The notes below the pieces were generated by a model. That model was not told the origin of the DNA. It saw only the letters and a program-made list of their open reading frames with translations, and searched no databases. The translations under genes and the position numbers were made by a program. A stretch of DNA of 64,000 nucleotides from Bdellovibrio sp. GT3 (GTDB lineage Bacteria > Bdellovibrionota > Bdellovibrionia > Bdellovibrionales > Bdellovibrionaceae), in contig NZ_JBBNAD010000005.1 in the NCBI RefSeq assembly GCF_037996765.1, positions 342,001 through 406,000 on the forward strand, in the 5' to 3' direction. Shown one piece after another: positions 13,041 to 30,127 of the stretch. Every line of letters begins with the position of its first letter. The first letter of the stretch is position 1.

Positions 13041-13069
13041 GCCCTGGGGAAACCCGGGGCTTTTTTTTT
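13041..13069 (+). terminator. Terminator of icd
   Basis: GCCCTGGG (13041-13048) and CCCGGGGC (13053-13060), with one T-G pair and loop GAAA, are followed by nine T. Confidence 0.92.
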
Positions 13070-13074
13070 GAGAT

Positions 13075-13503
13075 TTAGAAGGTAATCTTAATCGCATCAG
13101 CATTCTTTTTCGCAGGTCCGTGAAAGACGGCCTCGATATTGTTGCCATCCGGATCAATCACAAATGCGGCGTAATAACCTGGATGATAGGGGCGCTCCCC
13201 GGGTTTACCGTTATCTTTTCCACCCGACTTCAAAGCGACTTCATAGAATTTATCAACCATCGTGCGGTCTTTTGCCTGAAAGGCTAAATGCGTGCGGCCC
13301 GTTAGCTCCCCAGCTGCTGCCTGGCTGGATTTTGTGGAAATGAAAAGCTCATCGACCCAAATGAAATCCGGGCCTTCGCCGCCCAATGGAATTTGCAAAG
13401 TTTCAAAGAGCGGAAGATAGAACTTCTTCGTGGCCTCAAGATCACGAACAACCAGCTGAAGGTGATCGATCAAACGACCGCGATAAATCTCATTTGTTTC
13501 CAT
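13075..13503 (-). CDS. VOC-family (glyoxalase/bleomycin-resistance fold) protein
   Basis: 142 residues with the two beta-alpha-beta-beta-beta modules of the vicinal oxygen chelate fold. LIDHLQLVVRDLEATKKFY carries the first metal His, GRTHLAFQAKD the second, and YYAAFVIDPDGNNIEAVFHG the terminal Glu. Members include glyoxalases, dioxygenases and drug-binding proteins; the exact reaction is not readable. It may be the last gene of the transcript from the sugar operon, since it lies only 23 bases past the epimerase stop, but a unit of its own is equally possible. Confidence 0.87.
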   Translation of the reverse strand: METNEIYRGRLIDHLQLVVRDLEATKKFYLPLFETLQIPLGGEGPDFIWVDELFISTKSSQAAAGELTGRTHLAFQAKDRTMVDKFYEVALKSGGKDNGKPGERPYHPGYYAAFVIDPDGNNIEAVFHGPAKKNADAIKITF

Positions 13504-14456: not shown

Positions 14457-15382
14457 GCCGTCACTGCAGATTCAAACAGTTCAGACACATCCAAACCCAG
14501 GTCTTTGCGCAGAACTTCCCTGCCGCCGTACTGGTAGGTGTATCCACCGTTCATATTCAACGCCATACGTTTTACTGAGCATTTTAAATCATGATCGACG
14601 ACGGTTTCAGCCACCAAGGTCCCCAGACCACCATTTTTAAAGTGCTCTTCTAGGCAGATTACATGAGTGAATGTTTTAAGTTCTTGAATAAGCTTTTCGT
14701 GTACGAAATCCAATCTGGCCACTTCGATCACATTAAGATCAGGATTCTTGCTGATGATCTCCGGGGATTTAGCCACCAGATTGCCTGTCACCAGAAGCGC
14801 CTTCTTGCTTGCGCCTTTGCTTAAGTATCTAAAGCCCTGGGCAAAATTCATTGCGGATTCACCTGCAACGTGCGCAAGTACCTCGCGATCCATGCGAATG
14901 TATCGCGGAGTTTTTGGATGATCCAAAACATACTTCGCGGCTAGCTCTGCATTTTCCGCACTGGAGATATTCAAGATCTCGATATTGGGGAAGGCACGCA
15001 TAACTGCCACATCTTCAATCCCATGATGAGTGGGGCCGGAGTCAGCATAACTGAATCCCCCGCCGACGGCGATGATCTGCACCGGCAACTTCATGATGGA
15101 CATTTGCACACGGATTTTTTCCAGACAGTTAATCGTGATAAAGGAGGCAATCGCAAACGCAAATGGCTTTTTGCCTTCCAAGGCCAATCCCGAAGCCACA
15201 AGAATCGCATTTTGTTCAGCAATGCCCACGTTGTAGAACTGCCCCGGCAGGTTGCGACGAATCAGGTCCAAAGCCGGCGCACCCATATCAGCAGAAATAA
15301 CCACGACGTCGCGATCGATTTTTCCGCGCTCATAGATTTCAGACAATAGAGCATCACGCTGGGAAAGTTCTGTGTGTGACAT
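14453..15382 (-). CDS. Transketolase-like protein, C-terminal subunit
   Basis: 309 residues covering the pyrimidine-binding and C-terminal domains of transketolase. Visible blocks are VVISADMGAPALDLIRR, QFYNVGIAEQNAILVASGLALEGKKPF (with the catalytic Glu in AEQN), SYADSGPTHHGIEDVAVMRAFPN and a C-terminal ketoacid-dehydrogenase-like fold (VIEVARLDFVHEKL). It needs the separately encoded N-terminal subunit just upstream, and the two genes overlap by one base (TAATG). Split transketolases of this kind occur in sugar or natural-product clusters as well as in central metabolism. Here the operon context favours two-carbon transfer to a nucleotide sugar; this is inference. Confidence 0.93.
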   Translation of the reverse strand: MSHTELSQRDALLSEIYERGKIDRDVVVISADMGAPALDLIRRNLPGQFYNVGIAEQNAILVASGLALEGKKPFAFAIASFITINCLEKIRVQMSIMKLPVQIIAVGGGFSYADSGPTHHGIEDVAVMRAFPNIEILNISSAENAELAAKYVLDHPKTPRYIRMDREVLAHVAGESAMNFAQGFRYLSKGASKKALLVTGNLVAKSPEIISKNPDLNVIEVARLDFVHEKLIQELKTFTHVICLEEHFKNGGLGTLVAETVVDHDLKCSVKRMALNMNGGYTYQYGGREVLRKDLGLDVSELFESAVTA

Positions 15383-16212
15383 TATCTGGATCCTTTCGCC
15401 AAATCCTTGCGGGCTTGGTTGATTTCCTGAGTTCCTTTTGGCGGAACACCATGCATGACCGGATTATGGGAAAGGGATGGAATACCGGCGCCTTTTGTAG
15501 TTTCTGCGATAATCACCGTGGGTTGTCGATATTTACGATTGCGAAGTCCTGACATGCTTTGCACCAGTGACTCAATGTCATGACCATTTACTGTGACTAC
15601 ATTAAAGCCAAAGGATTCAAACTTTTTATCCAAAGGCTCAAGTGCCAGCATATTTTCAGTGAAATCCGTGGTTGCCAAAAAATTCCTGTCCACAATCACG
15701 ACCAGATTGTTCAGCTGATTGTGAGCCGCAAACATCGCCGACTCCCAGATCGAACCCTCATACAATTCACCATCCCCCAACAGACAATAAACCATGTGCA
15801 GGTCCCGATTCATTTTTGCAGCCAATGCCACTCCGGCGGCCACGCCAAGTCCGTGCCCCAAGGCCCCCGTTGTCAGCTCGACGCCGGGAACACTGTTTTG
15901 CAAGTGAACACCGAAATGACCACCTTTTTGGGCAAAGCCATTTAGCCAGTCTTTGGGGAAAAATCCTTTTCTGGAAAGAATACTGTAAATAAGAGGACTG
16001 CATTGTCCTTTGCTGATGATCACGCGATCACGGCCCGGCCATTTCGGCTCTTCAGGCTTTACGTTCACCAGTCCACCAAAGTAGAGACTGATCAGCACTT
16101 CCACCGAAGACATTGAGGAAGTCACATGTCCCGTGCCGGCCTTAATACACATTTCCAAAACTTCGGTGCGCGTTTCGTGCGCAAGTTTGTTTAATTCTTC
16201 AACGTTCATCAT
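15382..16212 (-). CDS. Transketolase-like protein, N-terminal (thiamine diphosphate) subunit
   Basis: 276 residues. It carries the PP-domain of transketolase: GHVTSSMSSVEVLISLYFG, GHGLGVAAGVALAAKM and the ThDP/Mg signature GDGELYEGSIWESAMFAAHNQL...DRN. About half the length of a full transketolase, it is completed by the next gene. The start overlaps the stop of the dehydrase gene by 4 bases. With the upstream PMP-type dehydrase and downstream epimerase it probably forms a branched-sugar pathway rather than serving the pentose phosphate route. Confidence 0.93.
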   Translation of the reverse strand: MMNVEELNKLAHETRTEVLEMCIKAGTGHVTSSMSSVEVLISLYFGGLVNVKPEEPKWPGRDRVIISKGQCSPLIYSILSRKGFFPKDWLNGFAQKGGHFGVHLQNSVPGVELTTGALGHGLGVAAGVALAAKMNRDLHMVYCLLGDGELYEGSIWESAMFAAHNQLNNLVVIVDRNFLATTDFTENMLALEPLDKKFESFGFNVVTVNGHDIESLVQSMSGLRNRKYRQPTVIIAETTKGAGIPSLSHNPVMHGVPPKGTQEINQARKDLAKGSR

Positions 16213-17387
16213 CTGCCGACCTCAATAAGAGCTTTACATAGCTCGTCGATCCATTTTAACGGTAGACCTGGGAAGTTTCCCAGATAGAAACCATTGTGGT
16301 GAATTTGTTCAGTGTTTGTATAAAGTGCCGGATTCACATCAATGCCGCGGGTTTTTAAAAAACCCTGACGAAGTTGGTTGCCACCGCCCGACATTCCACG
16401 GCGATACTCCACCCCAAGGTTTAGCAAGACCTTTTCCACCTGAGGTTTTAGATGTGCGTGCTCTGAGCGCAATTGCAAAAGAAGTGCGTAGCTGGAGCTG
16501 CCTTTAATTGAGTAGTCAACGAAGTAAATCTGCTTATTCAGGTTACTCAGAAATCTTTGCAGTCTTAGGTTTCTTTGGGAGTTGTTCTTATCCAGACGCT
16601 TTAACTGGCTTAATCCCAAAACCGCACCAAGTTCGTTGTTGCGAAAGTTGTAACCTACAACCGGAAAATCAAATTCCTTGTAAACGTCTTTTGAGTTCCC
16701 AAGATATTCCTGCAATTCCTGGGGAGCCGTCGACTCGCGAAGAAGCCCATGCCCCCGCTTAATACGAATCAACTGCGCAAACTTGGAATCATTGGTGGAT
16801 ACCATTCCACCTTCAATGGTGGTCATGTGATGGCCATAGTAAAAGGAGAAATTCGAGGCAAATCCAATGCTGCCGACTTTCTTCTTACCAAAAACAGCGC
16901 CATGGGATTCACAGGCATCCTCGATAAGCGGAATATTTTTGCTTTTAAGCAAATCCAAAAGACTTTTACTCACCCCATTCAACCCCAGAACGTGTGTCAG
17001 AAAAACTGCTTTCGTTTTGGAGGTGATTGCTTTCTTTACGCTCTCAAAATCCAAAGCCAGGGTGTTTGGATTGATATCCACAAATACAGGCGTGAAACCA
17101 TTTTCAATTACCGAGACCACATCAGACACCCAAGTCAAAGGCGGAAGAATCACCTCACCCAAGCCCACGGTGTCGCGCAGCGCAGACATTGTTAGAAAGT
17201 TCGCAGCAGATCCGGAGCTGACAAAGATACTGTGCTTTACACCCAACCACTGCGACCATGACTTTTCAAAAAGCTTTACTTTTTCACCTTGGGTAAACCG
17301 ATCCGAAGTCATGATGTGTTTCACCAGAGCGGTTTTATCAGCGTCGGTGATATTGTTTTGAATCAAGGGCCAACGAATGTTATTCAT
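16209..17387 (-). CDS. ColD/RfbH-like PMP-dependent sugar 3-dehydrase (DegT/DnrJ/EryC1 fold)
   Basis: 392 residues with the fold-type I aminotransferase layout (VSSGSAANFLTMSAL, EDACESHGAVFGKKKVGSIG). In sugar aminotransferases the Schiff-base Lys sits in SFHATKXXTTGEGG. Here the motif is SFYYGHHMTTIEGG, with His186 at the lysine position. The same Lys-to-His change defines E1/RfbH and ColD, which use pyridoxamine phosphate to remove the C3 hydroxyl of a 4-keto-6-deoxysugar. No E3-type iron-sulfur reductase gene is nearby, so a ColD-like, self-deaminating mode is more likely. It overlaps both neighbours (8 bases with the radical SAM gene, 4 with tktN). The identity of the nucleotide sugar is unknown. 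Confidence 0.88.
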   Translation of the reverse strand: MNNIRWPLIQNNITDADKTALVKHIMTSDRFTQGEKVKLFEKSWSQWLGVKHSIFVSSGSAANFLTMSALRDTVGLGEVILPPLTWVSDVVSVIENGFTPVFVDINPNTLALDFESVKKAITSKTKAVFLTHVLGLNGVSKSLLDLLKSKNIPLIEDACESHGAVFGKKKVGSIGFASNFSFYYGHHMTTIEGGMVSTNDSKFAQLIRIKRGHGLLRESTAPQELQEYLGNSKDVYKEFDFPVVGYNFRNNELGAVLGLSQLKRLDKNNSQRNLRLQRFLSNLNKQIYFVDYSIKGSSSYALLLQLRSEHAHLKPQVEKVLLNLGVEYRRGMSGGGNQLRQGFLKTRGIDVNPALYTNTEQIHHNGFYLGNFPGLPLKWIDELCKALIEVGR

Positions 17388-18879
17388 ATGAGGCCTTCGC
17401 CAGAACTTTATCGACAGAGTATTTGCGACTTAGGTTTATCTTTTTCAAATTTACAATGTAGTCATAGGTCTTCTGACCAAATTTCGTTTTGATCAGATTC
17501 AGATAAGAGGGGCTGTTGTGATAAATGCTCCAGGCCTGATCGCGGAACGTCAGCACTTCCGAAGAACTGATATACTTTGTCGGGAGTGGCTTGCAATCAT
17601 AGGAATGCTGACTGTAGCCCAACCACGTCTCCGGAAGTTCCGTATTATTACGAACCGCCTCACGATAAAGCTCTGAACCTGGATATGCCATGGCAGAATA
17701 GAAATTGGCAGTTTCAAGATTCAGCTCAACCGCCAAATCCAAACTTCTTTGCATGGTTTCCAACGTATCGTCCGGTAAGCCAAAGACGAAGTTACCATGA
17801 ACGTGAATGCCGCCATCTTTAAGCATCTTGGTTTTTTCGAAGATATCCTCTTCGGTATAGCGGCCTTTATTCACACCGGTTCTGACTTTTTGATCAAAAG
17901 CTTCTATCCCCAGCACAATCCAATTGATTCCAGCGGCTTTTAACTTATCGACGTGATGAGGTTTGATTGTATCAATGCGCCCGAACACCCAGATATTGAA
18001 GTTGTACTTTCGCTCAATCAATAGCTCGGCAATCCTAAGAAAGTGCTCTTCTTTTAGAACAAACATCTCGTCAGCGATCTTGATGTTTTTAACTCCCAAT
18101 GAGGCGTAAACATCAAATTGCTTTATGATAAACTCTGGATCCCAATAGCGAAATGTTCCCTGTTTGCCGAACGGAGCACTGATGCAACAAAAGCTGCATT
18201 TGAATGGGCAGCCCAGGCTAGTGTAAACCGTGGCATAGGGCTGGCGTTGATCGATATGATCAAAACAATGCCAGTTCGGTGCTTTGTAATTTCCCATCGG
18301 CAAAGACTGCAAATCAACTTCTGGAAATACACTGCCCAATAGTTTTTGCTCAATCAGTGGAGCCGTGGGATTGTGCTCGATTCGCCCGTCATCGCGAAAC
18401 CACAAACCAGGAACTTTTCTTAAGTAAGAAATAGTCTCCAAGTCCGTTTGCAAAAGAGCATCCAGTGTTCTTGGTCCTTCGCCCTCGCAAACAAAATCAC
18501 ATACCTCATCCTGCATGGTACGCAGTGGAAGGGCTGAGATATGACCACCCAACATGATGACTTTTAGTTGAGGATTCAGTTTCTTTAGTTCCGTACACAG
18601 ATAACTTGCCCCAAACATCGCCTGGGTCGAAGCAGATGGATGCTGTCCATAAACCACGATACAGACCAGTTTGGGATTTAGCTGAGTGATTCGATCGTAG
18701 GTTTGCGAGGTCTGCAGCGCCTCGGCCGCACAATCAATCTGATCAGCGGAGTGCCCCATGCTTTTCATGGAAGCCGTCAGCATCCCCATCCATACCGGAA
18801 GCTCCAGTGTGGCAACGCCACCACTCAAATTCTGGTAGACGTGTTCAGATATTGGGGGATTTAGAAAAAGTATGTCCAC
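17380..18879 (-). CDS. B12-binding-domain radical SAM protein
   Basis: 499 residues. The N-terminal 140 residues form a cobalamin-binding-like Rossmann domain (MDILFLNPPI..., VIMLGGHISALPLRTM). The radical SAM core follows with the 4Fe-4S cysteines C224, C228 and C231 in GCPFKCSFC, and later GIEAFDQKVRTGVNKGRYTEED and HGNFVFGLPDDT. Members carry out methylations and rearrangements, and many of unknown function lie in polysaccharide or lipid clusters. It is first in the five-gene operon, with its start 56 bases from the divergent membrane-protein gene. A C-methyl or skeletal change on the sugar is a reasonable guess, not shown. Confidence 0.9.
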   Translation of the reverse strand: MDILFLNPPISEHVYQNLSGGVATLELPVWMGMLTASMKSMGHSADQIDCAAEALQTSQTYDRITQLNPKLVCIVVYGQHPSASTQAMFGASYLCTELKKLNPQLKVIMLGGHISALPLRTMQDEVCDFVCEGEGPRTLDALLQTDLETISYLRKVPGLWFRDDGRIEHNPTAPLIEQKLLGSVFPEVDLQSLPMGNYKAPNWHCFDHIDQRQPYATVYTSLGCPFKCSFCCISAPFGKQGTFRYWDPEFIIKQFDVYASLGVKNIKIADEMFVLKEEHFLRIAELLIERKYNFNIWVFGRIDTIKPHHVDKLKAAGINWIVLGIEAFDQKVRTGVNKGRYTEEDIFEKTKMLKDGGIHVHGNFVFGLPDDTLETMQRSLDLAVELNLETANFYSAMAYPGSELYREAVRNNTELPETWLGYSQHSYDCKPLPTKYISSSEVLTFRDQAWSIYHNSPSYLNLIKTKFGQKTYDYIVNLKKINLSRKYSVDKVLAKASYE

Positions 18880-18935: not shown

Positions 18936-20444
18936 ATGTTATTATATTGCATTATATTTTTGCTTGTCGTCGTTTACTGGCCAACAGCCCTTTACTGGAA
19001 CGACGACATTCTATGGGCCCGAGGTATTTCAAATTACATTGATTGGCCCGTTCATTTTGCCCACGCCACCAAAGTTCACTATCAGTCCATAGTTGAATGG
19101 TACACCCACAATCCGTTCGTTTATAACACGCGAAACAACTATCCATTCTGGGCAGATGTTCCATCAGGACTACTACTGCGCTTAGGACTGCCATTTAAGA
19201 CTTCATTTCTTATCCCGTCCGTTTTGCTCACCGTATTCTTTCTTTATTGCGTTTATAAGTTCCTGAATAAAAGAGGTTTCGACAAAAATTCCATTGCCGC
19301 AGTCCTGGTGCTTTTTCTATTTGCCAGTATGCCCAACGGAGAAGGAACTCAGCCGCAACTTTGGCTTAATACTTTTAGCCCCAACCGCAGTCTACTTCTT
19401 ACCTTTTCACTGCTTTTGATTGTGTATGGTATATTTAGTGACTTCCTGAATTCGGGATGGAACTCCGACCGAAAAAAGAAATTCCTGACTTTCACGAAAC
19501 TGAGTCTTATCACTTTGATAATGTGCCTTACTCACCCACACACCCTGCTTTCCACAGCAGTAACTGCCACCGTATTCTCCGTCCTTATCTTTAAGAAAAA
19601 GAAATCTATTCCCATCGAAGCAGTGGCATGGGCCTTCAGCAGTTTGGCGATAATTCTAGCCTTCAAACATTACCTTTGGGGGGAAGCAACTGCGGGATAC
19701 CCAATATTTCGACCCAATTGGACTTCTGAAAGGTTCTTCATCAGTCCCTTCTTATTTTGGCCGATGTTCGGTGGCGTCGTTTATACTCTGGGAATCGGAT
19801 TGGCGATCTACAAGAAGAAGTTCCTGGAACTTTCGATCGTCATCACTTTAACTCTGGTCCACTTGCTATTCCAATGGCAAATCAACGAGTATGACAACAT
19901 CAAGAACACCCTCTTGATGATGTTCTTGTGTGCCGTAATTTTGGTGGAAGTACTTCCATCAAAAAAGCTTCTGGCCGTAATTTGCGTTATCTGCATTTTG
20001 CCATCCCTCAAAGAGTGGACCGAAATCTATCCAATCAGTTCGCGAATAGAAATGGATATCGCTGAAAGAATTCAAAAGACTACTCCCAAAGACTATGTCG
20101 CAATTATCGATAGCCGCCACAACCATCTGGTGCCGATGTTTACGACAGTGCCAGTTATGGCGTGGTGGGACTTTTATTCCTGGACTCTGGGATTGAACAC
20201 AAAACCCGAAACACTATTTAGATTCGAAGCTTTGCGAATACCACAGAAGACTTCATATTCAAAGCCGCTGCTTTATGTAGCCCGTCTTGACGGAGGCTAT
20301 TCGCCATTCGAAGTGGCAGGACGATTCAAAGATTTGACAGGAGTTTATCTGCAATTCGATGCAAACGCTCTAAAAAATCTTGCACCTTACGAACAGTTTC
20401 CAGGATATACAATCTACAGGAAGCTCGCAGCCCCGTCTCCTTAA
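18936..20444 (+). CDS. Polytopic membrane protein, probable GT-C-type glycosyltransferase or polymerase
   Basis: 502 residues with about ten hydrophobic segments, the first at the very N terminus (MLLYCIIFLLVVVYWPTALY). It is followed by an acidic WNDDILWARG loop of the kind seen in the first periplasmic loop of GT-C enzymes. The C terminus is a soluble region (LYVARLDGGYSPFEVAGRF). No close family is recognised. The ATG at 18936 has no clear ribosome site. It is divergent from the sugar operon and convergent with the GT2 gene, overlapping by 4 bases. Base composition is AT-rich compared with the housekeeping genes. Confidence 0.7.
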   Translation: MLLYCIIFLLVVVYWPTALYWNDDILWARGISNYIDWPVHFAHATKVHYQSIVEWYTHNPFVYNTRNNYPFWADVPSGLLLRLGLPFKTSFLIPSVLLTVFFLYCVYKFLNKRGFDKNSIAAVLVLFLFASMPNGEGTQPQLWLNTFSPNRSLLLTFSLLLIVYGIFSDFLNSGWNSDRKKKFLTFTKLSLITLIMCLTHPHTLLSTAVTATVFSVLIFKKKKSIPIEAVAWAFSSLAIILAFKHYLWGEATAGYPIFRPNWTSERFFISPFLFWPMFGGVVYTLGIGLAIYKKKFLELSIVITLTLVHLLFQWQINEYDNIKNTLLMMFLCAVILVEVLPSKKLLAVICVICILPSLKEWTEIYPISSRIEMDIAERIQKTTPKDYVAIIDSRHNHLVPMFTTVPVMAWWDFYSWTLGLNTKPETLFRFEALRIPQKTSYSKPLLYVARLDGGYSPFEVAGRFKDLTGVYLQFDANALKNLAPYEQFPGYTIYRKLAAPSP

Positions 20445-21370
20445 TGATCCAGGTTTACGGCTTCATTAACGATATAGTGAGGCCTATTGCGAGTGGCTGT
20501 ATGTACTTGACGAAGATAAAAACCAAAAAGCCATACGATAAAGAAAAGCCCTGAGAAACCAAAGCTCACAACCGTCAAAAGCAAAGTATTCTGGTTAAAA
20601 GAACCTGCCATCGACCATACACCAATTAGAGTACCAATGAAAAAAATCACGCCCACGAAGAAGGGCAGATGCAATGGAAAGTACGAGAAGTGAGTCCATG
20701 CCCTGAAAAATTCAAGATAGCTTCTTGTGCGACCCAATGAAAAATTCGTTTCACCCGCAAAACGTGGCTGTCGCTTAAACGGCAAATAAGCCTGCTTCAA
20801 ACCAACCCAATCAGTGTATGCACGGAAATACGGATCCACCTCTCCAGAGCGTAAAATCTCATTTACAGCCCGACGAGTAAGAAGCTTAAAATTTCCACAA
20901 TCGATTGAATACTTAAATGGATATGAAGCGGCCAGAATTCTATAGGACAGTTTCAGCATGATTCTTTTATACAAAGTCTCACCGTGACGTTCGACCATAT
21001 GGGTATTCACCACGTCAGCATCAGTGGATTGCCACAACTTGACCAAATCGGCAAAGAGTTCGGGTGGGTCCTGAAGATCGGAATCCATCGTAACCACCAG
21101 ATCACCCTTGGCAACCTTCAGTCCGGCAAAAAAACAGATATCCCGTCCCATTTGGCGGGTCATCTGCAGGATCCGAATTCGCTTATCAGATTTTATAGAC
21201 TCTTTGATCAAATTTGGCGAAAAGTCCCGGGAATGGTCGTCGACAAAGATCATTTCTCCGTCGATATCAAAATCCTGTTTCAATTTATCCAAAGCAGATC
21301 CACAGCGAGCAATGAACTCTTGAATTGTGGCGCCTTCATTTAAATTCGTAAGTACTACTGATAGAAGCAT
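20441..21370 (-). CDS. GT2 glycosyltransferase with two C-terminal membrane helices (DPM1/GtrB-like)
   Basis: 309 residues. The GT-A domain starts MLLSVVLTNLNEGATIQEFI, has FVDDHSRD, QMGRDICFFAGLKVAKGDLVVTMDSDLQDPPE (the DXD region) and CGNFKLLTRRAVNEIL. Two hydrophobic helices follow (about residues 225-290), as in polyprenyl-phosphate mannosyl or glucosyl transferases such as GtrB. Such enzymes load a sugar on undecaprenyl phosphate for a GT-C partner, and three candidate GT-C-like genes lie close by. The donor sugar is not known. Confidence 0.9.
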   Translation of the reverse strand: MLLSVVLTNLNEGATIQEFIARCGSALDKLKQDFDIDGEMIFVDDHSRDFSPNLIKESIKSDKRIRILQMTRQMGRDICFFAGLKVAKGDLVVTMDSDLQDPPELFADLVKLWQSTDADVVNTHMVERHGETLYKRIMLKLSYRILAASYPFKYSIDCGNFKLLTRRAVNEILRSGEVDPYFRAYTDWVGLKQAYLPFKRQPRFAGETNFSLGRTRSYLEFFRAWTHFSYFPLHLPFFVGVIFFIGTLIGVWSMAGSFNQNTLLLTVVSFGFSGLFFIVWLFGFYLRQVHTATRNRPHYIVNEAVNLDH

Positions 21371-21416: not shown

Positions 21417-22868
21417 ATGAAGAAGCCATCCCTCAATGAATTCATTTTTTACTACTTGATTCCTTTGATTTTCATTGGCAGCTACCTCTTTACTGCGGTT
21501 AAGGAAGTTAGGTATGGCTTAAATCGCGATTATGCCGAGGGAACAACCTTGGCATTTGTGGACAAGTACAGAAGCGCCACAAGCCCACGCGATATTTACT
21601 CCGCAGAATCATTTCAAGAAGGAGAGATCATCGGTTATCCAGCTCTGCACCTTGCCTTGATTAGCGCTCTTTCAAGCGATGCATCGACTGCACTTTCCTC
21701 CGGCAGAATCGTCTCGGTTACTTCAATATTACTCATCTCAGTTCTTGCGTGGCTCATATTGTTTAAAGGTCAGCTGGTAAATCTGAAATTTCTACCCCTG
21801 ATAACTACTTTACTTCTGTATCAATCGGCAATTTACGACTGGTCGCTCTTGGCAAGAGCCGACCTGCTGGCCGCGCTCTTCGAAGTTCTCGGTATATTTA
21901 TTTTCCTAAGATCCAATGGAAAGTCGATCGGTTCACTCGCCATCTCGATGATTTGTTTTGCAGGTGCATTCTTATGCAAGCAAAACGCCGTTGCTGGCCC
22001 GATCCTGATAGTCATTCTTTTGGCTTTAAACAACCGTCGCACCTTCCTGAAATCACTTCCGGTTTTAGCCGTTGTCAGCATAAGCATCGGCTTGATCGTC
22101 ACTGCTTTATTTGGCGGCTCATACTGGCAACACACGATTCTGCAACTTGGTAAGCAGGAGTTCTTCCTTTCCAGATTGCTCCAATTAATCTCAGGATACT
22201 TGCCCGCTCATCTTTTTCTGTTCGCTCTTGCCCTGATCGCAATGAAGTTCTCGGATCATAAGCTGGCAAAACGTGTACTGCCTGTGTGGATTGGTATTGC
22301 ATTGATACTGGCGTTGACGGGCCTGGGTAGATCCGGTTCAAACTATAACTACTTTATCTCCCTGAGTGTTCCACTGGGAATTATCGCATTCCTTGGCATA
22401 CGAGTTGTCATGCAAATGGAAATGTCCTCTAAAAAATTGATGGCCTTGATTTGCCTGGCCCTTTTCACAGGAATGGCATTTGCGGAGAATAGCAACTTGG
22501 CCGGAAGGCTCACCTTCCTGGATCATCGCTCTTGGCCACCTTCGCGACAAGAACCTGAGATTGCTCTGTCCAAAACAAGAACTCACCTGGAAAGTATCGG
22601 CGCTAAAAATGTGTTTTGCGATGAACCTGGAATCTGCGCCCTGCTGGGCTATCCCACCAAATATATGTACTTTGAGAATCAAATGCATTCGGTGCGCAAG
22701 ACGGACTTAACCCAGGTGTTCGATACCTTACTTCTCACGGAGTATCCCGACAAGAATCTCGCGTGGACTCAGTTTAAGCTGCCTGCGGGTTTTTTGGATC
22801 AGATCCAAGCCGATTATGAACTGCAACGAATCACCGAAATGGGATTCGTCTTTGCACGAAAGCAGTAG
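21417..22868 (+). CDS. GT-C-like membrane glycosyltransferase, paralogue of the gene at 28682-30127
   Basis: 483 residues, about ten to twelve membrane segments. It shares an ordered set of motifs with the protein of 28682-30127: an acidic first loop (RDYAEGTTLA here, IDYGEATTLS there), ARADLLAALFEVLGIFIFL versus GRVDGLALFLQILGLFFYL, CKQNAVAGP versus TKQSAVWIP, and GRSGSNYNYFISLSV versus GREGSSSNFLLELSV. The arrangement suits a polyprenyl-phosphate-dependent glycosyltransferase of the PMT/ArnT type. It stands alone on the plus strand with its stop abutting a convergent small gene. Confidence 0.75.
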   Translation: MKKPSLNEFIFYYLIPLIFIGSYLFTAVKEVRYGLNRDYAEGTTLAFVDKYRSATSPRDIYSAESFQEGEIIGYPALHLALISALSSDASTALSSGRIVSVTSILLISVLAWLILFKGQLVNLKFLPLITTLLLYQSAIYDWSLLARADLLAALFEVLGIFIFLRSNGKSIGSLAISMICFAGAFLCKQNAVAGPILIVILLALNNRRTFLKSLPVLAVVSISIGLIVTALFGGSYWQHTILQLGKQEFFLSRLLQLISGYLPAHLFLFALALIAMKFSDHKLAKRVLPVWIGIALILALTGLGRSGSNYNYFISLSVPLGIIAFLGIRVVMQMEMSSKKLMALICLALFTGMAFAENSNLAGRLTFLDHRSWPPSRQEPEIALSKTRTHLESIGAKNVFCDEPGICALLGYPTKYMYFENQMHSVRKTDLTQVFDTLLLTEYPDKNLAWTQFKLPAGFLDQIQADYELQRITEMGFVFARKQ

Positions 22869-23272: not shown

Positions 23273-24172
23273 ATGAATATGAAAAAAGTTATTCTCTTGG
23301 GTGAATCAGGTTTAATTGGAGGTGCTTTAGCAAAAAAGCTTGGGGCCAGTGGGCAATTCGCTTTAACAATGCCATCTTCCAAAGAGCTTAATCTGCTGAA
23401 CTCAGACGCGGTTGAATCATATTTTGCGAAACACAAGCCCGATCTGATACTCAATGCCGCCGGCAAATGTGGTGGCGTTGCTGCAAACATTCAAATGCCA
23501 GGAGACTTTTCCCTGGAAAACACGATCATCAGTGCATCCGTATTTAGTGCCGCAATAAAAACTGGTGTCACTCGTATTATTCATTTCATCCCTGCGTGTA
23601 TTTACCCTACGAATGCCACCCTTCCCTATTCAGAGGATTCTATCCTAAGTGGTGCCCCCGAGGAATCCAGCCAGTATTTTGCGGTGGCGAAGCTAAATGC
23701 TTTATTTATGGCGGAAGCCCTGAACAAGCAGCATAAAACCAATTTTGTATCAATCATTCCCAGTAATGTATATGGCCCCTGCCATAGAGCCTCTGTAGAC
23801 CATTCACATGTCATTCCCTCATTGATAAAGAAAATGACCACGGCAAAAAACAGCAACTCTCCCTCAGTGGAAATTTGGGGCAACGGTACCAATCAAAGGG
23901 ATTTTTTGCATGTCGAAGATCTCGCCGAAGCCACTTATCAAGTCATGATGGCAATCAACCCACCACCGGTGATCAATGTCGGGAGCGGTGAAGTAACAAC
24001 CATCGAGAATCTGGCCCGCATCATTCAGTTGCATGTCGGATATACTGGAAAACTTAACTTTTCAGACAACGGTTTGTCGGGCGCTCAGCACAAATACGTC
24101 GATACTTCCAAAATCAAAAAGCTTGGCTGGACGGCCAAAGTCTCTTTGCGCGATGGAATCAAATCTTTGTGA
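23273..24172 (+). CDS. GDP-L-fucose-synthase-like SDR with altered catalytic residues
   Basis: 299 residues. The protein follows the GMER (WcaG) pattern: VILLGESGLIGGALAKKL (Rossmann loop), AAGKCGGVAANIQMPGDF and PSNVYGPCHRASVDHSHVIPSLI. The catalytic Ser region, SSCIYP in GMER, reads IPACIYP here. The YXXXK motif, PYAIAK in GMER, reads YFAVAK, so Phe stands at the Tyr position with a Tyr one residue earlier. The Lys is kept. Either the chemistry differs or the enzyme is impaired. ATG at 23273 is followed by a second ATG two codons on. It overlaps the convergent dioxygenase gene by 14 bases. Confidence 0.83.
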   Translation: MNMKKVILLGESGLIGGALAKKLGASGQFALTMPSSKELNLLNSDAVESYFAKHKPDLILNAAGKCGGVAANIQMPGDFSLENTIISASVFSAAIKTGVTRIIHFIPACIYPTNATLPYSEDSILSGAPEESSQYFAVAKLNALFMAEALNKQHKTNFVSIIPSNVYGPCHRASVDHSHVIPSLIKKMTTAKNSNSPSVEIWGNGTNQRDFLHVEDLAEATYQVMMAINPPPVINVGSGEVTTIENLARIIQLHVGYTGKLNFSDNGLSGAQHKYVDTSKIKKLGWTAKVSLRDGIKSL

Positions 24173-25067
24173 TTTTAATATTCGCAGGGTGCCTCATTCC
24201 ATCAACTGGAAGGAAGATATCGTCCTCACCATCCGGGGACTGCACTCTCAAGGTTTTTCCAATCTCAAAAAAATGCTGATTGGAAACTTTTTGCCGATCG
24301 GCCAATAAATTGAAACCATCCGGAAAAACATCTTCCGGATAGCTCTTTAATACTAAATTCAGATCAATTGAGACCCGCAGCCCGGCGTTTTCAGTCCGAT
24401 GCGTGCCATGCAAAAGAGACGAATCCACCATCAGAATAGTGCCAGGAGCGCTGGTCACCGGCAGCTCTTGGCTATTGGCTATTAATTCATTCGCATCGTG
24501 ATAGCTGCCAAGTGGTTTCATCCATTCGCTGCCCATTTCATTATTGGGTCGCCATACTTTCAGGCGATTGCCCTCCATATCCCCCAAAACTGGAATATGC
24601 AAAAGCACTGAGCGGGCTGAACACCCTACCCACGTTTCTGAATGCGGTAGCTCTGTTGGATAACTAAGGGATTTTGCCGTTTTATCAATGCCCTTCAAAC
24701 GAACGTTGAATGGGTAAATCCAGAAATCGACAACATTAGAAATTTTCGACTGCGTAAGAATTTCTGCGATCAGTTTGTGAACTTGGGTAAACTTTTGGTC
24801 ACAGTATGATTTGGGGATAACAATGCCTGAGGTGCTCAGGTTCTTGGCTTTCCTTAATACTTCCCCCAGAAACTGACCACTATCAATGTCGGACCAATCC
24901 GTTACACCGGCTGAAATACTCAAATACTCGCTGACGTGATTCTGCAACTGAGTATATAGCTGGGCCGGTATCTTGTAGCTTGCAGTCAATGGCTCGTCAG
25001 ACTGAAATCCTGTGCGCGCCATTGCCTCATCAAAATACATTTTTCTGGAAAGCTGATAATCATTCAT
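24159..25067 (-). CDS. Putative Fe(II)/2-oxoglutarate dioxygenase (phytanoyl-CoA dioxygenase-like)
   Basis: 302 residues. A double-stranded beta-helix oxygenase is suggested by LPHSETWVGCSARSVLLHIPV (candidate HXE metal pair), SAPGTILMVDSSLLHGTHRTE (distal metal His) and AGLRVSIDLNLV (Arg for 2-oxoglutarate). Order and spacing fit the phytanoyl-CoA dioxygenase group. It overlaps the HddC-like gene by 4 bases, so the two are cotranscribed. In this glycan cluster a hydroxylation of a sugar or lipid intermediate is possible, but the substrate cannot be read from sequence. Confidence 0.65.
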   Translation of the reverse strand: MNDYQLSRKMYFDEAMARTGFQSDEPLTASYKIPAQLYTQLQNHVSEYLSISAGVTDWSDIDSGQFLGEVLRKAKNLSTSGIVIPKSYCDQKFTQVHKLIAEILTQSKISNVVDFWIYPFNVRLKGIDKTAKSLSYPTELPHSETWVGCSARSVLLHIPVLGDMEGNRLKVWRPNNEMGSEWMKPLGSYHDANELIANSQELPVTSAPGTILMVDSSLLHGTHRTENAGLRVSIDLNLVLKSYPEDVFPDGFNLLADRQKVSNQHFFEIGKTLRVQSPDGEDDIFLPVDGMRHPANIKITKI

Positions 25068-25780
25068 ACCAGCTCCCCTTCCAAATGAGCCTTCAGTTGG
25101 AGATAACCTTCACGGGTTCCAAAATCAATCTCTGCGAACGAACCCAGAAGAAAGTCAGACTCATCCCTGATTTTCCCGAAAACATCCTTCTCAAAGGAAC
25201 ATTCAGCAGGCAATCCCAATTTTTCCCATTCATAAATGATGTCAGAATTTAAAAGCGCAACTCCGACATATTTATACTCTTCGGTGTTGTACAGATCTGA
25301 CCATTTCTGCACCTCACCTTTGGAAACCAACTCAAGCATCTTGATGCCGTCAGACCTACCCATCAAGAATATAGATTTACCAGAAATGGGATGTTTCGAC
25401 AGAGCCGGGAAAGGACATTCCTCGAAAAATGTGTCCGCGTTTGAAAGAATGAAACTGCTTTCCTTCAGGTAGGGCCCAATCAAAGCCAGAGCCCCACCGG
25501 TTCCAAGGCGTATTGGCTCCTCGGGGAATGAGAATCTCATACTATAGCTCTTCCCACTGACGTATTCCATAAGGGAATCTCGATCCGGTCCCGCCAAGAG
25601 AATTACGTGTTGAATTCCTGATTGCTGTGCTTGTTTGAGCAGATAATCCAGAAAAATAAAATTGCCAAACCGACTCAGACATTTGATCTGACCCTGAGCA
25701 TTCAAAAAATCGTTTAGACGAGATGCTTTTCCACCCGCCAAGAGAACCAAAGTTTTTGTTTCCAATTCTGAAGTTCCCAA
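25064..25780 (-). CDS. HddC-like sugar-1-phosphate nucleotidyltransferase
   Basis: About 239 residues from a TTG start at 25780, with AGGGAA 8 bases upstream; a TTG at 25765 is equally possible. The frame is open to 25894, but that part would overlap the divergent kinase gene by nearly 100 bases and carries no family sequence. Family blocks are LVLLAGGKASRL (a variant of LAGGXGTRL), IKCL with the substrate Lys, FILSNADTFFEE (metal Asp) and YKYVGVALLNSDIIYEW. HddC makes GDP-D-glycero-D-manno-heptose for surface polysaccharide. The adjoining HddA-like kinase supports this pathway, but the variant signature loop makes the exact substrate uncertain. Confidence 0.75.
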   Translation of the reverse strand: MGTSELETKTLVLLAGGKASRLNDFLNAQGQIKCLSRFGNFIFLDYLLKQAQQSGIQHVILLAGPDRDSLMEYVSGKSYSMRFSFPEEPIRLGTGGALALIGPYLKESSFILSNADTFFEECPFPALSKHPISGKSIFLMGRSDGIKMLELVSKGEVQKWSDLYNTEEYKYVGVALLNSDIIYEWEKLGLPAECSFEKDVFGKIRDESDFLLGSFAEIDFGTREGYLQLKAHLEGELV

Positions 25781-25796
25781 AGTAGCATTTCCCTGA

Positions 25797-26702
25797 ATGA
25801 TATTTAAAACGAGTATACCATATCGAATAGGTTTAATTGGAGGCGGAACAGATCTGCCTTTTTTTACTAACGAACATGGAACCGAAATCATCAACGCATC
25901 ATTTAATGCTTTCTCTCATTGTGAAATTCAGAAAATCCAAAGTCCACACATTTTTATTGAGACACAGGATTATAAAACTCATGCACAAATAGACAAGCTT
26001 CCGGAGCTGGCCCTGATCGCCAAAGATGAATTCAGAATCTGTCTTGCAGTACTGAATCATTTTGCGGATCAGATAATGAATCTAAAATCTGGTATTCACA
26101 TTAAATCCTATTCAGAGTTTGCTCCGCAAACAGGACTGGGGGGAAGCTCGGCACATTTGATATCTGTCTTAAAAACATGCCTGGAGTTTCTAAATCAATC
26201 ATGGGATGACGAGAAGATTCTAGATACCGCCCATTCACTTGAAAGAAATACGCTAAGTATTTTTGGTGGCTTTCAGGATTTCTATCCGTGCCTTCATCAA
26301 GGCGCGCATCATTTGTCCAAAAAACCCGATGCAGAAATCATCCATCACAAATTAGATAGCTCTTTCCTTAGGAACCTGGATCTTGCATTTTTTGTGTCTG
26401 AAACAACTGGTGTCAGTTTAGGCGAAATGGAATTGCCGGATGCAAGTTCGCTTCAGTTGCAAAAAAAGTACGCCCGTGAAGCAGCTCTAGCCTGGAAGTC
26501 CGGTGACGGAAAGACGTTCAAGCAAACTCTTAAAAGCAGCTGGAACGTCAAACAAGGTTCTGATCAAGCGCCGAAACATGTCTTTGCAATGAAAAGCTGC
26601 GGTCTTTCCAAGAAAATGAACGTTCTGGCTGTGGAGAATTCCAATGAAAAGATTTTTTTGGAAACCATCGGCCGTGGAGTGCGTAAAGTTGAGTGGACTT
26701 AA
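25797..26702 (+). CDS. HddA-like GHMP sugar kinase lacking the third GHMP motif
   Basis: 301 residues; HddA proteins are usually about 340. The N terminus MIFKTSIPYRIGLIGGGTDLPFF is characteristic of D-glycero-D-manno-heptose 7-phosphate kinase, and the phosphate loop reads TGLGGSSAHLISVLKT. Near the C terminus, where family members have a GAGGGG motif, the sequence passes from GLSKKMN straight to VLAVENSNEK, so that glycine loop is missing. The frame is otherwise intact and ends RKVEWT, as in relatives. It is divergent from the HddC-like gene and overlaps the following membrane-protein gene. Confidence 0.78.
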   Translation: MIFKTSIPYRIGLIGGGTDLPFFTNEHGTEIINASFNAFSHCEIQKIQSPHIFIETQDYKTHAQIDKLPELALIAKDEFRICLAVLNHFADQIMNLKSGIHIKSYSEFAPQTGLGGSSAHLISVLKTCLEFLNQSWDDEKILDTAHSLERNTLSIFGGFQDFYPCLHQGAHHLSKKPDAEIIHHKLDSSFLRNLDLAFFVSETTGVSLGEMELPDASSLQLQKKYAREAALAWKSGDGKTFKQTLKSSWNVKQGSDQAPKHVFAMKSCGLSKKMNVLAVENSNEKIFLETIGRGVRKVEWT

Positions 26703-28728
26703 AAATTTTATCAAACGTCACTGGGAGAAGTTGATCTTCCTAAACTGCATTGGTGCATTCTTAGCGCTTTATACTCATGACATCCTGTTTACACTGGATG
26801 GTGGCGGCAGATACGTCAGTGGCAAAGACCTGTTGGAAGTGGGTTATCACGGCTTCAATGACCACTACTTTATGGGAGGAATTCAAAATCTATTCTATCC
26901 CCCTCTTCATGATTTCCTGTTAGCAGGTGCAATAAAATTCAACGAATGGATTCTGTTCGGCGCATTGAATGAACGCCTTCTTTATAGCGCATTCGTATTC
27001 GGAATATTCACCTTCTTCATTTATTCCCTTTATAGAGTGAGCAGAAGTTTTGAAAACGCGTTCGCAAAAATATTCTTCGTTATTTTTGCGTCGTGGCCAC
27101 TGTATTTGAATATTTACTCTTTCGAAAAGAAGTTTGGCTATTTTCTGAATTTCTACAAAACACCCTATACGGTCTATTTTCAGGGTTTAACTCTACATGA
27201 CATATTCGTGACTGGAATCACCAATCAGTTTCTGTCGGCCGGATTTCTGGTTTTGGGAATTCTTTCAATCCAGAAAAAGAACAAGTACCTCTCGGCACTT
27301 TGGATTTCCCTTACGATTCTTAGTCACTTCGTCTTTGGACTGGTGATCGTGCTTATCTATGCAATAAAGAAGATTTTTGAGAAGGACTTCCGCACACTTT
27401 TTGCGGTTGGATTAGCATCCTTGGGTTTAACTGCCTTTTTTCTGATACCAATGATCGCAAATGGAAGCTATTTGATAACCATCAATTCAATTCCTATACG
27501 CACTGGCTTCTGGCTGTCGATCGTTGGTTTTTCATTTCTGTTCTATAAAAGCAGAACATATTCGTACTATCTATCCTTCTCCGCATTTATATTGGTAAGT
27601 TTAATAGGTATTTCAAAATTAGCGGATAAGTACGATCTGGCGTTCATACCTTTTCATTATTACCGTCTTTTGTTCGTCTCTCTTTTGGTGTTCATATTTG
27701 CCACAGCATTCGCTTTGAACGAACCACTGTCCCGTTTGCGTAAAGGCTTGATTCTGAGCGTATTTTTGGTCGCTTGGATTATGAATTTTGGCGGCCACTT
27801 CACGTTAGATAACTTATTTGATAAATATGAACCTGAAGTCGTCAGTATCACCCCTGAAAAACAGAATGACTTTTCTTTTGGGCGCACCTATTTTTTCGGG
27901 ATCACAAGGGGCGTGGACTTTGCATCTGAAATAACCTTGCACAGAATGCAATCGAGATCGTTCTTCACCAAAGGTCTTTACTGGGAAAGCGCACCGGCAA
28001 ACAGAATGACTTCTTCTGCTCTATTTTTCCTTACAGGTCCTCCTTCTGTCATGGAAGATGGATTTGATGATCCTTTTCATGGCAAAACCTGTCAGATCAT
28101 GAGTTGTTTCTTCAGATCCTTCTTAAACCAATCCGTCGCAACGGAAGTTTTCATGCCGCCCAAATACACAGTCGTCGAACACTTCTGGCAGGGCATGAAT
28201 TCGCGAAGTAACTTGGTTTCCTGCTATGATACCATTCTTAAGGATCTTGGCGAAAAGTCAGGACAACTCGCCTACGATTCTGTGAGCTTGGATCGGTATC
28301 TAAACAAAGCAACGGGAATGGTGCGCACCTTGAACACCAACTCCACCCGTCCCTCTTCACAATATTTCCTGGATCGCTGTACTGCAGATGTTAATGATGA
28401 CGGACGCGTCCCTGCGAATCAACTTCACAAGATTTCCCGAGTTTCATCTGGAGATTATGAGTTTTTCGCACCAGACACCAAAACCTCACTTTTAGTTTCC
28501 TTGCAATACTTCCCAGGATTTAAGTACGAAGCCAACGGTTTGAAAGATCTTTTACCTGAAGATTCGCCGTCTGCAGGTATGATTCTAAATGGATCAGGCA
28601 CTATAAAACTTCACTACAGCCGCACCCCACTCATGTGGGTTTCGTATTTTATTTCGGTATTAGCGTGGTCAGGAATGATTGTTATGGGTTTGGCCCATAT
28701 ACGACGTAGAATTCGTTCTGATAAATAA
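26689..28728 (+). CDS. Large polytopic membrane protein with periplasmic C-terminal domain
   Basis: About 679 residues. Start choice: TTG 26689 has GGAG about 9 bases upstream and gives a 14-base overlap with the kinase stop; the frame is open to ATG 26644, which lacks a ribosome site. The N-terminal 400 residues carry about ten membrane segments and an acidic first loop (LFTLDGGGRYVSGKDLLEVGYHG). The C-terminal 270 residues are soluble with several Cys (TCQIMSCFFRS, DRCTADVND) and finish with one more helix. The layout resembles YfhO/GT-C-type membrane glycosyltransferases, but no family is recognised. It is translationally linked to the kinase. Confidence 0.7.
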   Translation: MSGLKNFIKRHWEKLIFLNCIGAFLALYTHDILFTLDGGGRYVSGKDLLEVGYHGFNDHYFMGGIQNLFYPPLHDFLLAGAIKFNEWILFGALNERLLYSAFVFGIFTFFIYSLYRVSRSFENAFAKIFFVIFASWPLYLNIYSFEKKFGYFLNFYKTPYTVYFQGLTLHDIFVTGITNQFLSAGFLVLGILSIQKKNKYLSALWISLTILSHFVFGLVIVLIYAIKKIFEKDFRTLFAVGLASLGLTAFFLIPMIANGSYLITINSIPIRTGFWLSIVGFSFLFYKSRTYSYYLSFSAFILVSLIGISKLADKYDLAFIPFHYYRLLFVSLLVFIFATAFALNEPLSRLRKGLILSVFLVAWIMNFGGHFTLDNLFDKYEPEVVSITPEKQNDFSFGRTYFFGITRGVDFASEITLHRMQSRSFFTKGLYWESAPANRMTSSALFFLTGPPSVMEDGFDDPFHGKTCQIMSCFFRSFLNQSVATEVFMPPKYTVVEHFWQGMNSRSNLVSCYDTILKDLGEKSGQLAYDSVSLDRYLNKATGMVRTLNTNSTRPSSQYFLDRCTADVNDDGRVPANQLHKISRVSSGDYEFFAPDTKTSLLVSLQYFPGFKYEANGLKDLLPEDSPSAGMILNGSGTIKLHYSRTPLMWVSYFISVLAWSGMIVMGLAHIRRRIRSDK

Positions 28729-30127
28729 TGTGGTACTGAGTTTCGATAAGATCCAAAACGTTATTAGAGAGTCTTTGCACTGGGACCACGTGAGCTGCGG
28801 ACTCGCGAACGATCAATGCTATACTTTTACTTTTAAGCTGCTGCAAAAGAAGATCTTCTGAATATTCGCCCCTTGCGATGGACTGCCCGATTTCAAAGGG
28901 CCAAAATTCAGTGTTTTTATCTGCAAACATTGGCAGCGCCGGGTTTTCTGACCAGATAGACCCTTTGGCTTCACGAATATATTTTAAAACAACGTCCGTT
29001 TCTTCTTTAGCCTGATTTGTGTAATTAGCCCAGAATATATTAGGTCCCGGGTCCTTTATAAAATAGGAACGCACCTTCATATTTGGCCAACACGTAATCA
29101 GAACAACGGCGGCAGCAATGGAGGATTTAAGCAGTGACTTGTTTAAGTAGGTCTCTCCTCGGGCTACCAATAAAGTTAAAACGACGGACAACTCCAGCAG
29201 AAAATTTGAACTACTGCCCTCGCGCCCAGCACCCACAACCCAAATCAGGGAACTTGCCAAAAGCAATAACAATAACGCGTCAGCTTTTTTCAAATCCATT
29301 TTAACTAACCCATATACCGCCACCAATAGAACTCCTAAATGGAACTCAATATTGGACATCAGCATCTCAGTCAGGTTCAATAATTTGAACTGGTTTTGGT
29401 TGGATTTAATCAGATGGTCCCATACGAATCCCCCACTGAAATAGTGCAGGATTAAAAGCCCCCCAATGACGCCAGCAAAGTAAATTGACCAACGGCCCAG
29501 CTCTTTCTTTTGGAACCGGACCGTTTCCCAAAGCATCAACGTAAACGGAATCCACACAGCACTTTGCTTGGTAAAGAACGCCAGTATAAAACACACCAGA
29601 CTTAGAATTTTGAAAGAACTCTTTTCTGTCACCTTCAGGTAAAAGAACAGTCCCAGTATTTGAAGAAATAATGCCAATCCATCGACGCGCCCCATGGCCA
29701 TCCAGTTAGAAACCGAAAACCATGAAAACCAAAGCAGAAATGGCAGTGCAAAATCCCATGCCGTTGCCTTGTCCTCTTTCCAGTCGCAGTTTATTTTAGC
29801 AAGCAACAAGCCGACACCAACCAAAGCCAGCGTATTTATAAGACGAGCCGTGAACAACCAAGCTTCAGGTTCTTGCCCAATTAGCGACGTGATGTATTGA
29901 AATAAAGGAGTGTACGAAAAGTAGTTGAGATGTTCCGCGGCCTCGCGGGAGTATGGAAATAAACCCGAAAATAACGTTTTTACCTGGGAAAGCGTCGTCG
30001 CTTCCCCGTAGTCAATCGTATAGGGAAACCGCAGTATTTGTGCAGACCTGACGACGACGGCCAGATAGCAGATGAAGCCATAGAGAAAAAGAACGATTGA
30101 TAGTGGTTTTAACCTTTTCAATTGCAT
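28682..30127 (-). CDS. GT-C-like membrane glycosyltransferase, paralogue of the gene at 21417-22868
   Basis: 481 residues, about ten membrane segments beginning near the N terminus (SIVLFLYGFICYLAVVV). The conserved motifs shared with the 21417 gene product (acidic IDYGEATTLS loop, MGRVDGLALFLQILG, FTKQSAVWIPF, GREGSSSNFLLELSV) point to a common family and probably a common lipid-linked donor. Its last 47 bases overlap the 3' end of the preceding plus-strand gene on the opposite strand, so both proteins' C termini are encoded by the same DNA. Start ATG 30127 has no obvious ribosome site. Confidence 0.75.
   Translation of the reverse strand: MQLKRLKPLSIVLFLYGFICYLAVVVRSAQILRFPYTIDYGEATTLSQVKTLFSGLFPYSREAAEHLNYFSYTPLFQYITSLIGQEPEAWLFTARLINTLALVGVGLLLAKINCDWKEDKATAWDFALPFLLWFSWFSVSNWMAMGRVDGLALFLQILGLFFYLKVTEKSSFKILSLVCFILAFFTKQSAVWIPFTLMLWETVRFQKKELGRWSIYFAGVIGGLLILHYFSGGFVWDHLIKSNQNQFKLLNLTEMLMSNIEFHLGVLLVAVYGLVKMDLKKADALLLLLLASSLIWVVGAGREGSSSNFLLELSVVLTLLVARGETYLNKSLLKSSIAAAVVLITCWPNMKVRSYFIKDPGPNIFWANYTNQAKEETDVVLKYIREAKGSIWSENPALPMFADKNTEFWPFEIGQSIARGEYSEDLLLQQLKSKSIALIVRESAAHVVPVQRLSNNVLDLIETQYHIIYQNEFYVVYGPNP

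Follow-up and report, generated by a model that had tools for sequence, protein, structure and literature searches.

A GDP-fucose synthase-like protein of Bdellovibrio sp. GT3 with an incomplete reductase triad and an intact epimerase dyad: a possible epimerase-only relative

GDP-fucose synthase (GFS, or GMER) carries out epimerisation and reduction in one active site. Ser107, Tyr136 and Lys140 serve the reduction, while Cys109 as the base and His179 as the acid serve the epimerisation at C3 and C5 (PMC7949155). Natural relatives that only reduce are known. These are the Campylobacter jejuni reductases DdahC and MlghC, which keep the Ser-Tyr-Lys triad but carry T/H or Y/R where GFS has the Cys/His dyad (PMC7949155). 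Has the opposite loss, that of the triad with the dyad kept, also occurred in nature? In the open-access literature we found neither a natural GFS relative without the catalytic Tyr nor a natural GFS relative that only epimerises, and nothing useful on the surface sugars of Bdellovibrio.

The question is raised by a gene in a stretch of 64,000 nucleotides from Bdellovibrio sp. GT3, referred to here as the window. An earlier note on this DNA had described its product as a GFS-like SDR in which the canonical Ser and Tyr are missing. If the protein is an epimerase only, then it represents the opposite evolutionary split to that of DdahC and MlghC, and a simple epimerase for GDP-4-keto sugars is gained. 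It would also mark a recurring cassette of Cj1427-like, ColD-like, split transketolase and B12 radical SAM genes, the product of which could be examined in vitro using substrates already prepared by other groups. Here we investigate the protein, its relatives and its genomic surroundings.

The active site of the window protein

The gene at 23273-24172 (+) is an ATG-initiated open reading frame of 299 amino acids with no internal stop. The top PDB match of the protein is the E. coli GFS (Fcl) structure 1bws (phmmer, 4e-59), to which it is 35% identical, and in this alignment the residue numbers of the two proteins coincide across the active site. It matches the Epimerase family PF01370 with 152.4 bits, above the gathering cut-off of 20.9, and the GFS model NF047922 with 268.2 bits, under the cut-off of 500. 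This shortfall carries little weight, since L184 and L185, relatives in which the triad is complete, score under 500 as well (387.0 and 282.6 bits). PF00908 is not among its Pfam matches. The family membership claimed by the earlier note therefore stands. The window protein is a GFS-like extended SDR by fold and ancestry, but we do not call it a GFS because the triad, a defining feature of GFS, fails.

With E. coli GFS (1bws, 1e6u, 1gfs) the protein shares the fold, the active-site numbering, Cys109, Lys140 and His179; it differs in that Ser107 is replaced by Pro (CCT) and Tyr136 by Phe (TTT), and Ser108 by Ala (GCG). Residues 105-112 read FIPACIYP and residues 134-140 read QYFAVAK. The codons concerned lie at 23588-23599 (+) for I-P-A-C, positions 106-109, and at 23675-23692 (+) for Y-F-A-V-A-K, positions 135-140, and the codon for His179, the epimerase acid in GFS, is at 23807-23809 (+). 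The Gly-rich cofactor motif G10-x-x-G13-x-x-G16 is retained, with all three Gly invariant. Thus the reported substitutions, as well as the reported retention of the Lys and the cofactor loop, were confirmed, and alignment with the characterised structures places P107 and F136 at the catalytic Ser and Tyr. V180, W202, R209 and K274 are retained as well; we take these to be GDP contacts in GFS, so that the GDP-contact positions are presumably also common to the E. coli enzyme and the window protein. Positions 12 and 36, which in GFS are presumably the 2'-phosphate contacts Arg12 and Arg36, are both Ser. An argument on NADPH preference from these two residues was dropped, because both positions are variable among relatives with an intact triad (among 87 viral relatives, position 12 is Arg in 34, and position 36 is Arg in 27 and Ser in 21).

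An AlphaFold2 model was built from the window protein together with 40 viral loci (41 sequences). It has a mean pLDDT of 90.3 and a pTM of 0.90, and is least sure around His179, where the block 171-180 has a mean pLDDT of 64. Its top Foldseek match is E. coli GFS (1gfs, TM 0.95), followed by the C. jejuni GDP-heptose C4-reductases and human GFS. The VIA comparison gave a Z of 41.2 and an rmsd of 1.5 over 298 residues against 1e6u, and a Z of 33.8 against 2c5a, the GDP-mannose 3,5-epimerase (GME). The GFS fold is therefore common to the window protein and to DdahC and MlghC/Cj1428 (7anh, 7anc, 7m13). The fold of GME is similar too; however, GME has a Cys145/Lys217 dyad, a catalytic Tyr174 and bound NAD (PMC7949155; 2c5a title), where the window protein has His at the acid position and Phe at the Tyr position.

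Conservation and ancestry of the substitutions

In a genus set of 24 genomes, the window's own and 23 others, close orthologues are present in three: the window's own genome, G022 and G011. Those of G022 and G011 have 53-54% identity with the window protein. P107, Y135 and F136 are common to all three and C109, K140, N165 and H179 are invariant, so that the reductase triad is incomplete (P107, F136, K140) and the epimerase dyad invariant in 3/3 orthologues; at position 108 the window protein has Ala and the other two have Ser. The substitutions are thus conserved in both close relatives, a check that the earlier note had proposed. When nine sequences are aligned, C109, H179, N165, K140, W202, R209 and K274 are all invariant. 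A distant relative in G004, 31-32% identical, carries Arg in place of Lys140, and the remaining 20 genomes have remote SDR matches only, or none. GFS relatives with Tyr-x3-Arg, in which Arg replaces the catalytic Lys140, were seen at L024, L025 and L026 (G056, G044 and G004).

Between the G022 and G011 orthologues dN is 0.016 and dS 0.93 by NG86 (0.017 and 0.62 by YN00). The dN/dS of about 0.02 covers this pair, as dS against the window protein gave no value, and between the two orthologues there is strong purifying selection. The GFS-like gene is no outlier in its neighbourhood, since its 54% identity between the window's genome and G022 falls within the 46% to 87% of the other 14 cluster genes. 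A sequencing slip was ruled out by the identical changes in G022 and G011. Gene decay was ruled out by the conservation in three species, the intact frames, the dN/dS and the conserved gene order, in agreement with the earlier note, which had thought decay unlikely.

How unusual is this pair of residues? GFS-like matches were found in 105 of 368 genomes, and the residues were read for loci among the matches listed, of which each genome search gave at most 30. Among 62 distinct homologues, the window protein included, position 107 is Ser in 51, Thr in six, Pro in three, Ala in one and a gap in one, and position 136 is Tyr in 58 and Phe in four. Position 109 is Cys in 59, with one Ala, one Glu and one gap, and position 179 is His in 61 and Lys in one. 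P107 occurs in the rows of the window protein and of its two orthologues, and the P107/F136 pair is confined to these three; no other instance was found among the relatives read from the matches listed. Ordinary family variation was ruled out on this ground. The fourth F136 row is L081 of G197, in which Ser107 is retained. Scans of genome contigs with strict peptide patterns, which may have left out records near the window's genome, gave no further P107/F136 homologue. The viral scans, in one of which the best 80 of 429 relatives were retained, gave relatives with Tyr136 only and none with the pair, and S107, Y136 and C109 are kept in 87 of 87 viral relatives. A distant GFS-like SDR (27% identity) at L188:12117-13076 has Cys107 and Val136, in an alignment that is less sure.

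In a tree of 73 proteins the three P107/F136 sequences form one clade (100/100) with a stem length of 1.71. This trio falls in a 44-row clade (83/97) together with E. coli GFS, next to 18 rows from the same phylum (83/85). The L081 protein is placed inside the 18-row clade (99/85), and a protein of G345 with S136 and S107 belongs to a clade of three rows (100/91) at the opposite side of the drawn tree. As these stand apart, the catalytic Tyr has been lost separately at least three times among the GFS relatives read (the trio, G197 and G345). The subfamily also has changes of its own besides those at 107 and 136, including G106I, N133S, L166V, E210D, P268L and R273H; this list proves nothing at 107, 109 and 136, because the comparison set was filtered on those positions (L002 and L084-L090 were dropped beforehand). 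The L081 gene (1462-2394, -) also has Ser at the Asn165 position.

Gene neighbourhood, missing partners and the cassette in other genomes

Upstream of the GFS-like gene in the window are five minus-strand genes that overlap by 1 to 8 bases. The one at 13527-14456 (-) encodes a Cj1427-like SDR, a candidate source of the 4-keto group, with the top PDB match 6vo6 (E 2.2e-80), which we take to be Cj1427, the GDP-heptose C4-dehydrogenase. The next two encode the components of a split transketolase, the C-terminal at 14453-15382 (-), by profile matches, and the N-terminal at 15382-16212 (-), with the split-chain transketolase 6yak as its top PDB match. This is probably not the housekeeping transketolase, because a separate frame of 679 amino acids with a transketolase N domain is present elsewhere in the genome (C5:200020). 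The gene at 16209-17387 (-) encodes a ColD-like PLP/PMP sugar 3-dehydratase (1.8e-49 against ColD 2gms) in which an active-site His replaces the PLP-binding Lys: FYYGHHMTTIEGG aligns with FYSHHIATMEGG of ColD. The last, at 17380-18879 (-), encodes a B12-binding radical SAM protein by its profile matches.

A family 2 glycosyltransferase similar to PgfS/ArnC follows at 20441-21370 (-), also by profile matches. Overlapping the GFS-like gene tail to tail is a gene for a possible Fe(II)/2-oxoglutarate oxygenase of 302 amino acids (24159-25067, -), which has sub-threshold Pfam matches only and is conserved in G022 and G011. Beyond it are a nucleotidyltransferase that is weakly HddC-like (25064-25894, -; 33.8 bits against a cut-off of 300) and probably begins downstream of the listed TTG, and a GHMP kinase that is weakly HddA-like (25797-26702, +; 81.5 bits, cut-off 600). 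Four large membrane-like proteins, encoded at 18936-20444, 21417-22868, 26644-28728 (+) and 28682-30127 (-), have no Pfam match over cut-off; our impression is that they are perhaps glycosyltransferases that use polyprenyl-linked sugars. Between 13527, at the Cj1427-like gene, and 30127, at the last membrane protein, G022 and G011 share the gene order of the window. The cluster looks like a branched-sugar pathway, and its product is probably a branched surface sugar.

The usual partner of a GFS is the gmd product, which supplies GDP-4-keto-6-deoxymannose. No gmd over cut-off was found in the trio genomes (0/3; best 79.8 of 415 bits), nor was an RmlC-type epimerase (PF00908, 0/3). As a yardstick for gmd we chose 20 genomes from those with GFS-like or ColD-like matches, 18 with Tyr136 relatives together with G197 and G345. 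In 16 of these gmd is over cut-off, including 15 of the 18 with Tyr136 (one with an internal stop), and in several, such as G246, G181 and G346, it directly adjoins the GFS gene. G177 has two sub-cut-off gmd pieces at contig ends, and G166 and G215 have no gmd match at 1e-60. G345 has gmd over cut-off on another contig, and G197, which is 56% complete, does not have it over cut-off. A rule that loss of the Tyr goes with lack of gmd thus fails on G345, with G197 only 56% complete. The difference of 0/3 against 15/18 indicates that the usual substrate of a GFS is probably not available to the window protein, and ordinary GDP-fucose synthesis by it is unlikely because neither gmd over cut-off nor an RmlC-type epimerase was found in the trio genomes.

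As no RmlC-type epimerase was found, the role of epimerase may also be vacant in the trio. In C. jejuni the role proposed here for the window protein, that of epimerising a GDP-4-keto sugar, belongs to the C3/C5-epimerases MlghB and DdahB, RmlC-like cupins whose fold is unrelated to that of the window protein (PMC7949155). Is the substrate then a GDP-heptose? Cj1427 is a ping-pong C4-dehydrogenase for GDP-D-glycero-manno-heptose, and a C3-dehydratase is listed as also acting on its product (PMC10680097). Cj1428 acts after the C4-dehydrogenase in a pathway fed by HddA and HddC; among the C4-reductases of C. jejuni, epimerisation in addition to reduction was found in the r2 group alone (PMC10680097). 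Despite the likeness to HddA, HddC and Cj1427, a heptose substrate is doubtful for the window protein, because GmhA was not found in the trio, with no match to the GmhA and SIS_2 models in 3/3 genomes. The window's genome has HddA- and HddC-like genes, and a GmhA/SIS_2 isomerase was not found in it.

Do the same genes occur together elsewhere? With the ColD-like protein as query, 13 of 368 phylum genomes gave hits at E 1e-80 or better, and stretches were read from eight of the ten genomes beyond the trio (G010, G079, G189, G345, G353, G141, G203 and G202, but not G107 and G215). The ColD-like relatives also carry the active-site His in the seven other genomes looked at. Three distant genomes, G189, G202 and G203, combine B12 radical SAM, ColD-like, split transketolase, Cj1427-like and weakly HddA-like genes, and each has a GmhA match (over cut-off in 2/3). 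The five-gene module at 13527-18879 (-) recurs there with weakly HddA-like kinases (L185, L189 and L190) and looks like an uncharacterised branched nucleotide-sugar pathway. In the stretch read from G141 (L188) the cassette genes are present except the radical SAM gene. On a 5.2 kb contig of G010, of the same genus, are the radical SAM, ColD-like and transketolase genes and the start of the Cj1427-like gene. The ColD-like gene on this short draft contig (L183:1616-2837) is split over two overlapping frames, by decay or assembly error.

At a distance of up to about 9 kb from the ColD-like gene there is a GFS-like gene with Tyr136 in G189, G079 and G353, and one with Ser136 in G345. G141 has two distant GFS-like genes without Tyr136 within the same distance. 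In the stretches read from G202 and G203 the cassette is without a GFS-like gene, and GFS relatives are on other contigs. The GFS-like gene is therefore an accessory of the cassette, since these two stretches are without it and the G189 copy has Tyr136, and loss of the Tyr is not required by the cassette. A rule that ColD-like clusters go with Tyr loss was likewise rejected, because G189, G079 and G353 keep Tyr136. The G345 relative (L186:297-1235, -), with GSTVAK, Ser at Tyr136 and S107 kept, adjoins PDH-E1-alpha-like and ColD-like genes. The two G141 genes (L188:10976-12106 and 12117-13076, +) are adjacent GFS-like SDRs of 27% identity within the ColD-like cluster; they have S107/A136 and C107/V136, are absent from the tree and have less sure alignments.

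What the window protein may do

The reading that we favour, and hold tentatively, is that the window protein is a GFS relative in which ketoreduction has been lost and C3/C5 epimerisation kept, because Cys109 and His179, on which the earlier note is silent, are intact. The suggestion by the earlier note of a different reaction is in this way narrowed to the epimerase half of the GFS reaction, as a favoured reading and not a proven one. The Cj1427-like dehydrogenase would supply the GDP-4-keto sugar, which the ColD-like enzyme may deoxygenate at C3. Bound to the window protein, the sugar would be epimerised by Cys109 and His179 at C5, and at C3 where the hydroxyl remains, and would be released with its C4 ketone intact. 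The proposed loss of ketoreduction would thus spare this ketone for branching, in which, less surely, the split transketolase would add a two-carbon unit, and a surface glycan would thereby receive a 4-C-branched sugar. An epimerase that spares the ketone is useful where the final step is branching at C4.

A laboratory counterpart of F136 is Y143F of human GFS, an enzyme in which Cys116 is the base and His186 the acid (PMC12362431). About 3% of the activity is left in Y143F, reduction becomes rate-limiting with an isotope effect of 3.9, and epimerisation, by the authors' inference, suffers less; the residual activity is tentatively ascribed to a water molecule (PMC12362431). By analogy, the shift of the rate limit to reduction supports an epimerase-only reading of the window protein. 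Unlike the window protein, however, this mutant has the Tyr alone changed, and it still makes GDP-L-fucose at about 3% (PMC12362431). The hydroxyls of Ser and Tyr may, on mechanistic reasoning, also stabilise the C4 enolate during epimerisation. Loss of Ser107 and Tyr136 together could then abolish epimerisation too, and the enolate would need another stabiliser because both hydroxyls are gone. Nor is the dyad sufficient alone, because DdahC with the dyad put in by T110C gained no epimerisation (PMC7949155). Also against the epimerase-only reading, the GFS-like gene is optional within the cassette, the HddA and HddC matches are weak, GmhA was not found in the trio, and the model has its lowest confidence near His179.

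Might the protein instead be a non-catalytic member of the GFS fold, such as a mixed-dimer partner of the Cj1427-like SDR, a carrier of the 4-keto sugar or another binding or regulatory subunit? All three orthologues lack two of the three SDR catalytic residues, and purifying selection suits a binding protein no less than an enzyme. The long stem of the trio clade among canonical GFS rows is as expected for a change of function and fits a pseudoenzyme equally. Yet the seven residues invariant in the nine sequences are not obviously needed by a scaffold, and we consider such a role somewhat unlikely. It is quite unlikely that the protein catalyses another reaction of the GFS fold on a branched or 3-deoxy 4-keto sugar, for example a beta-elimination, a retro-aldol reaction or a C6 epimerisation. 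The further subfamily changes and the unusual partners of the gene, B12 radical SAM and split transketolase, would suit this, and the authors of PMC10680097 could identify no enzyme for GDP-heptose C6 epimerisation in C. jejuni HS:3/HS:4; on the other side, nothing points to any one such reaction, and the unchanged Cys/His dyad fits ordinary epimerisation more simply.

That the protein remains a C4-ketoreductase, with or without epimerisation, is distinctly improbable. Water or another group would have to replace Tyr136, as water may do in human Y143F (PMC12362431), and it is true that Lys140 and the Gly-rich motif are retained and that F136 alone occurs in another lineage (L081). But Ser107 is altered along with Tyr136, both of which are kept in 87/87 viral relatives, and the usual precursor enzyme, gmd, was not found over cut-off in the trio genomes. 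The earlier note had also suggested a shifted Tyr, by which Tyr135 would take over in an otherwise ordinary SDR whose motif has moved by one residue. All three orthologues have Tyr135, which is in the first turns, at the N-terminal part, of the model helix 131-154. By ideal-helix arithmetic, however, this Tyr is turned about 100 degrees away from position 136 and 140 degrees away from Lys140, and there is no obvious substitute for Ser107, position 108 being Ala in the window protein. This option is thereby weakened and is in our judgement highly improbable. Decay of the gene or an artefact, which the residue loss itself and nothing further would suggest, is barely credible given changes common to three species in intact, conserved and selected genes.

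The epimerase-only reading can be extended to the pathway as a whole. It would then be a natural epimerase-only GFS in an undescribed GDP-sugar branching pathway, with C4 oxidation, 3-deoxygenation, epimerisation without reduction and two-carbon branching in this order and a B12 radical SAM step included; this larger claim is unlikely. The branching of deoxy-keto sugar nucleotides by ThDP enzymes is known for YerE-type enzymes, and transketolases have been proposed for miharamycin and amipurimycin (PMC12247030). The window resembles these systems, as well as those of yersiniose and erwiniose (YerE, ErwE), in that a (deoxy) keto sugar would be branched by a ThDP enzyme (PMC12247030). It differs from all of them in its split transketolase and Cj1427-like dehydrogenase, and in that branching is here only inferred; the passages of PMC12247030 that were read do not describe a split transketolase as a sugar-branching enzyme.

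A minor observation concerns the acid of the dyad. Seven of the 87 viral relatives (L084-L090), which are distant GFS-like SDRs, have Lys at the His179 position, and the corresponding H186K change in human GFS slows the enzyme by about 4- to 6-fold only (PMC12362431).
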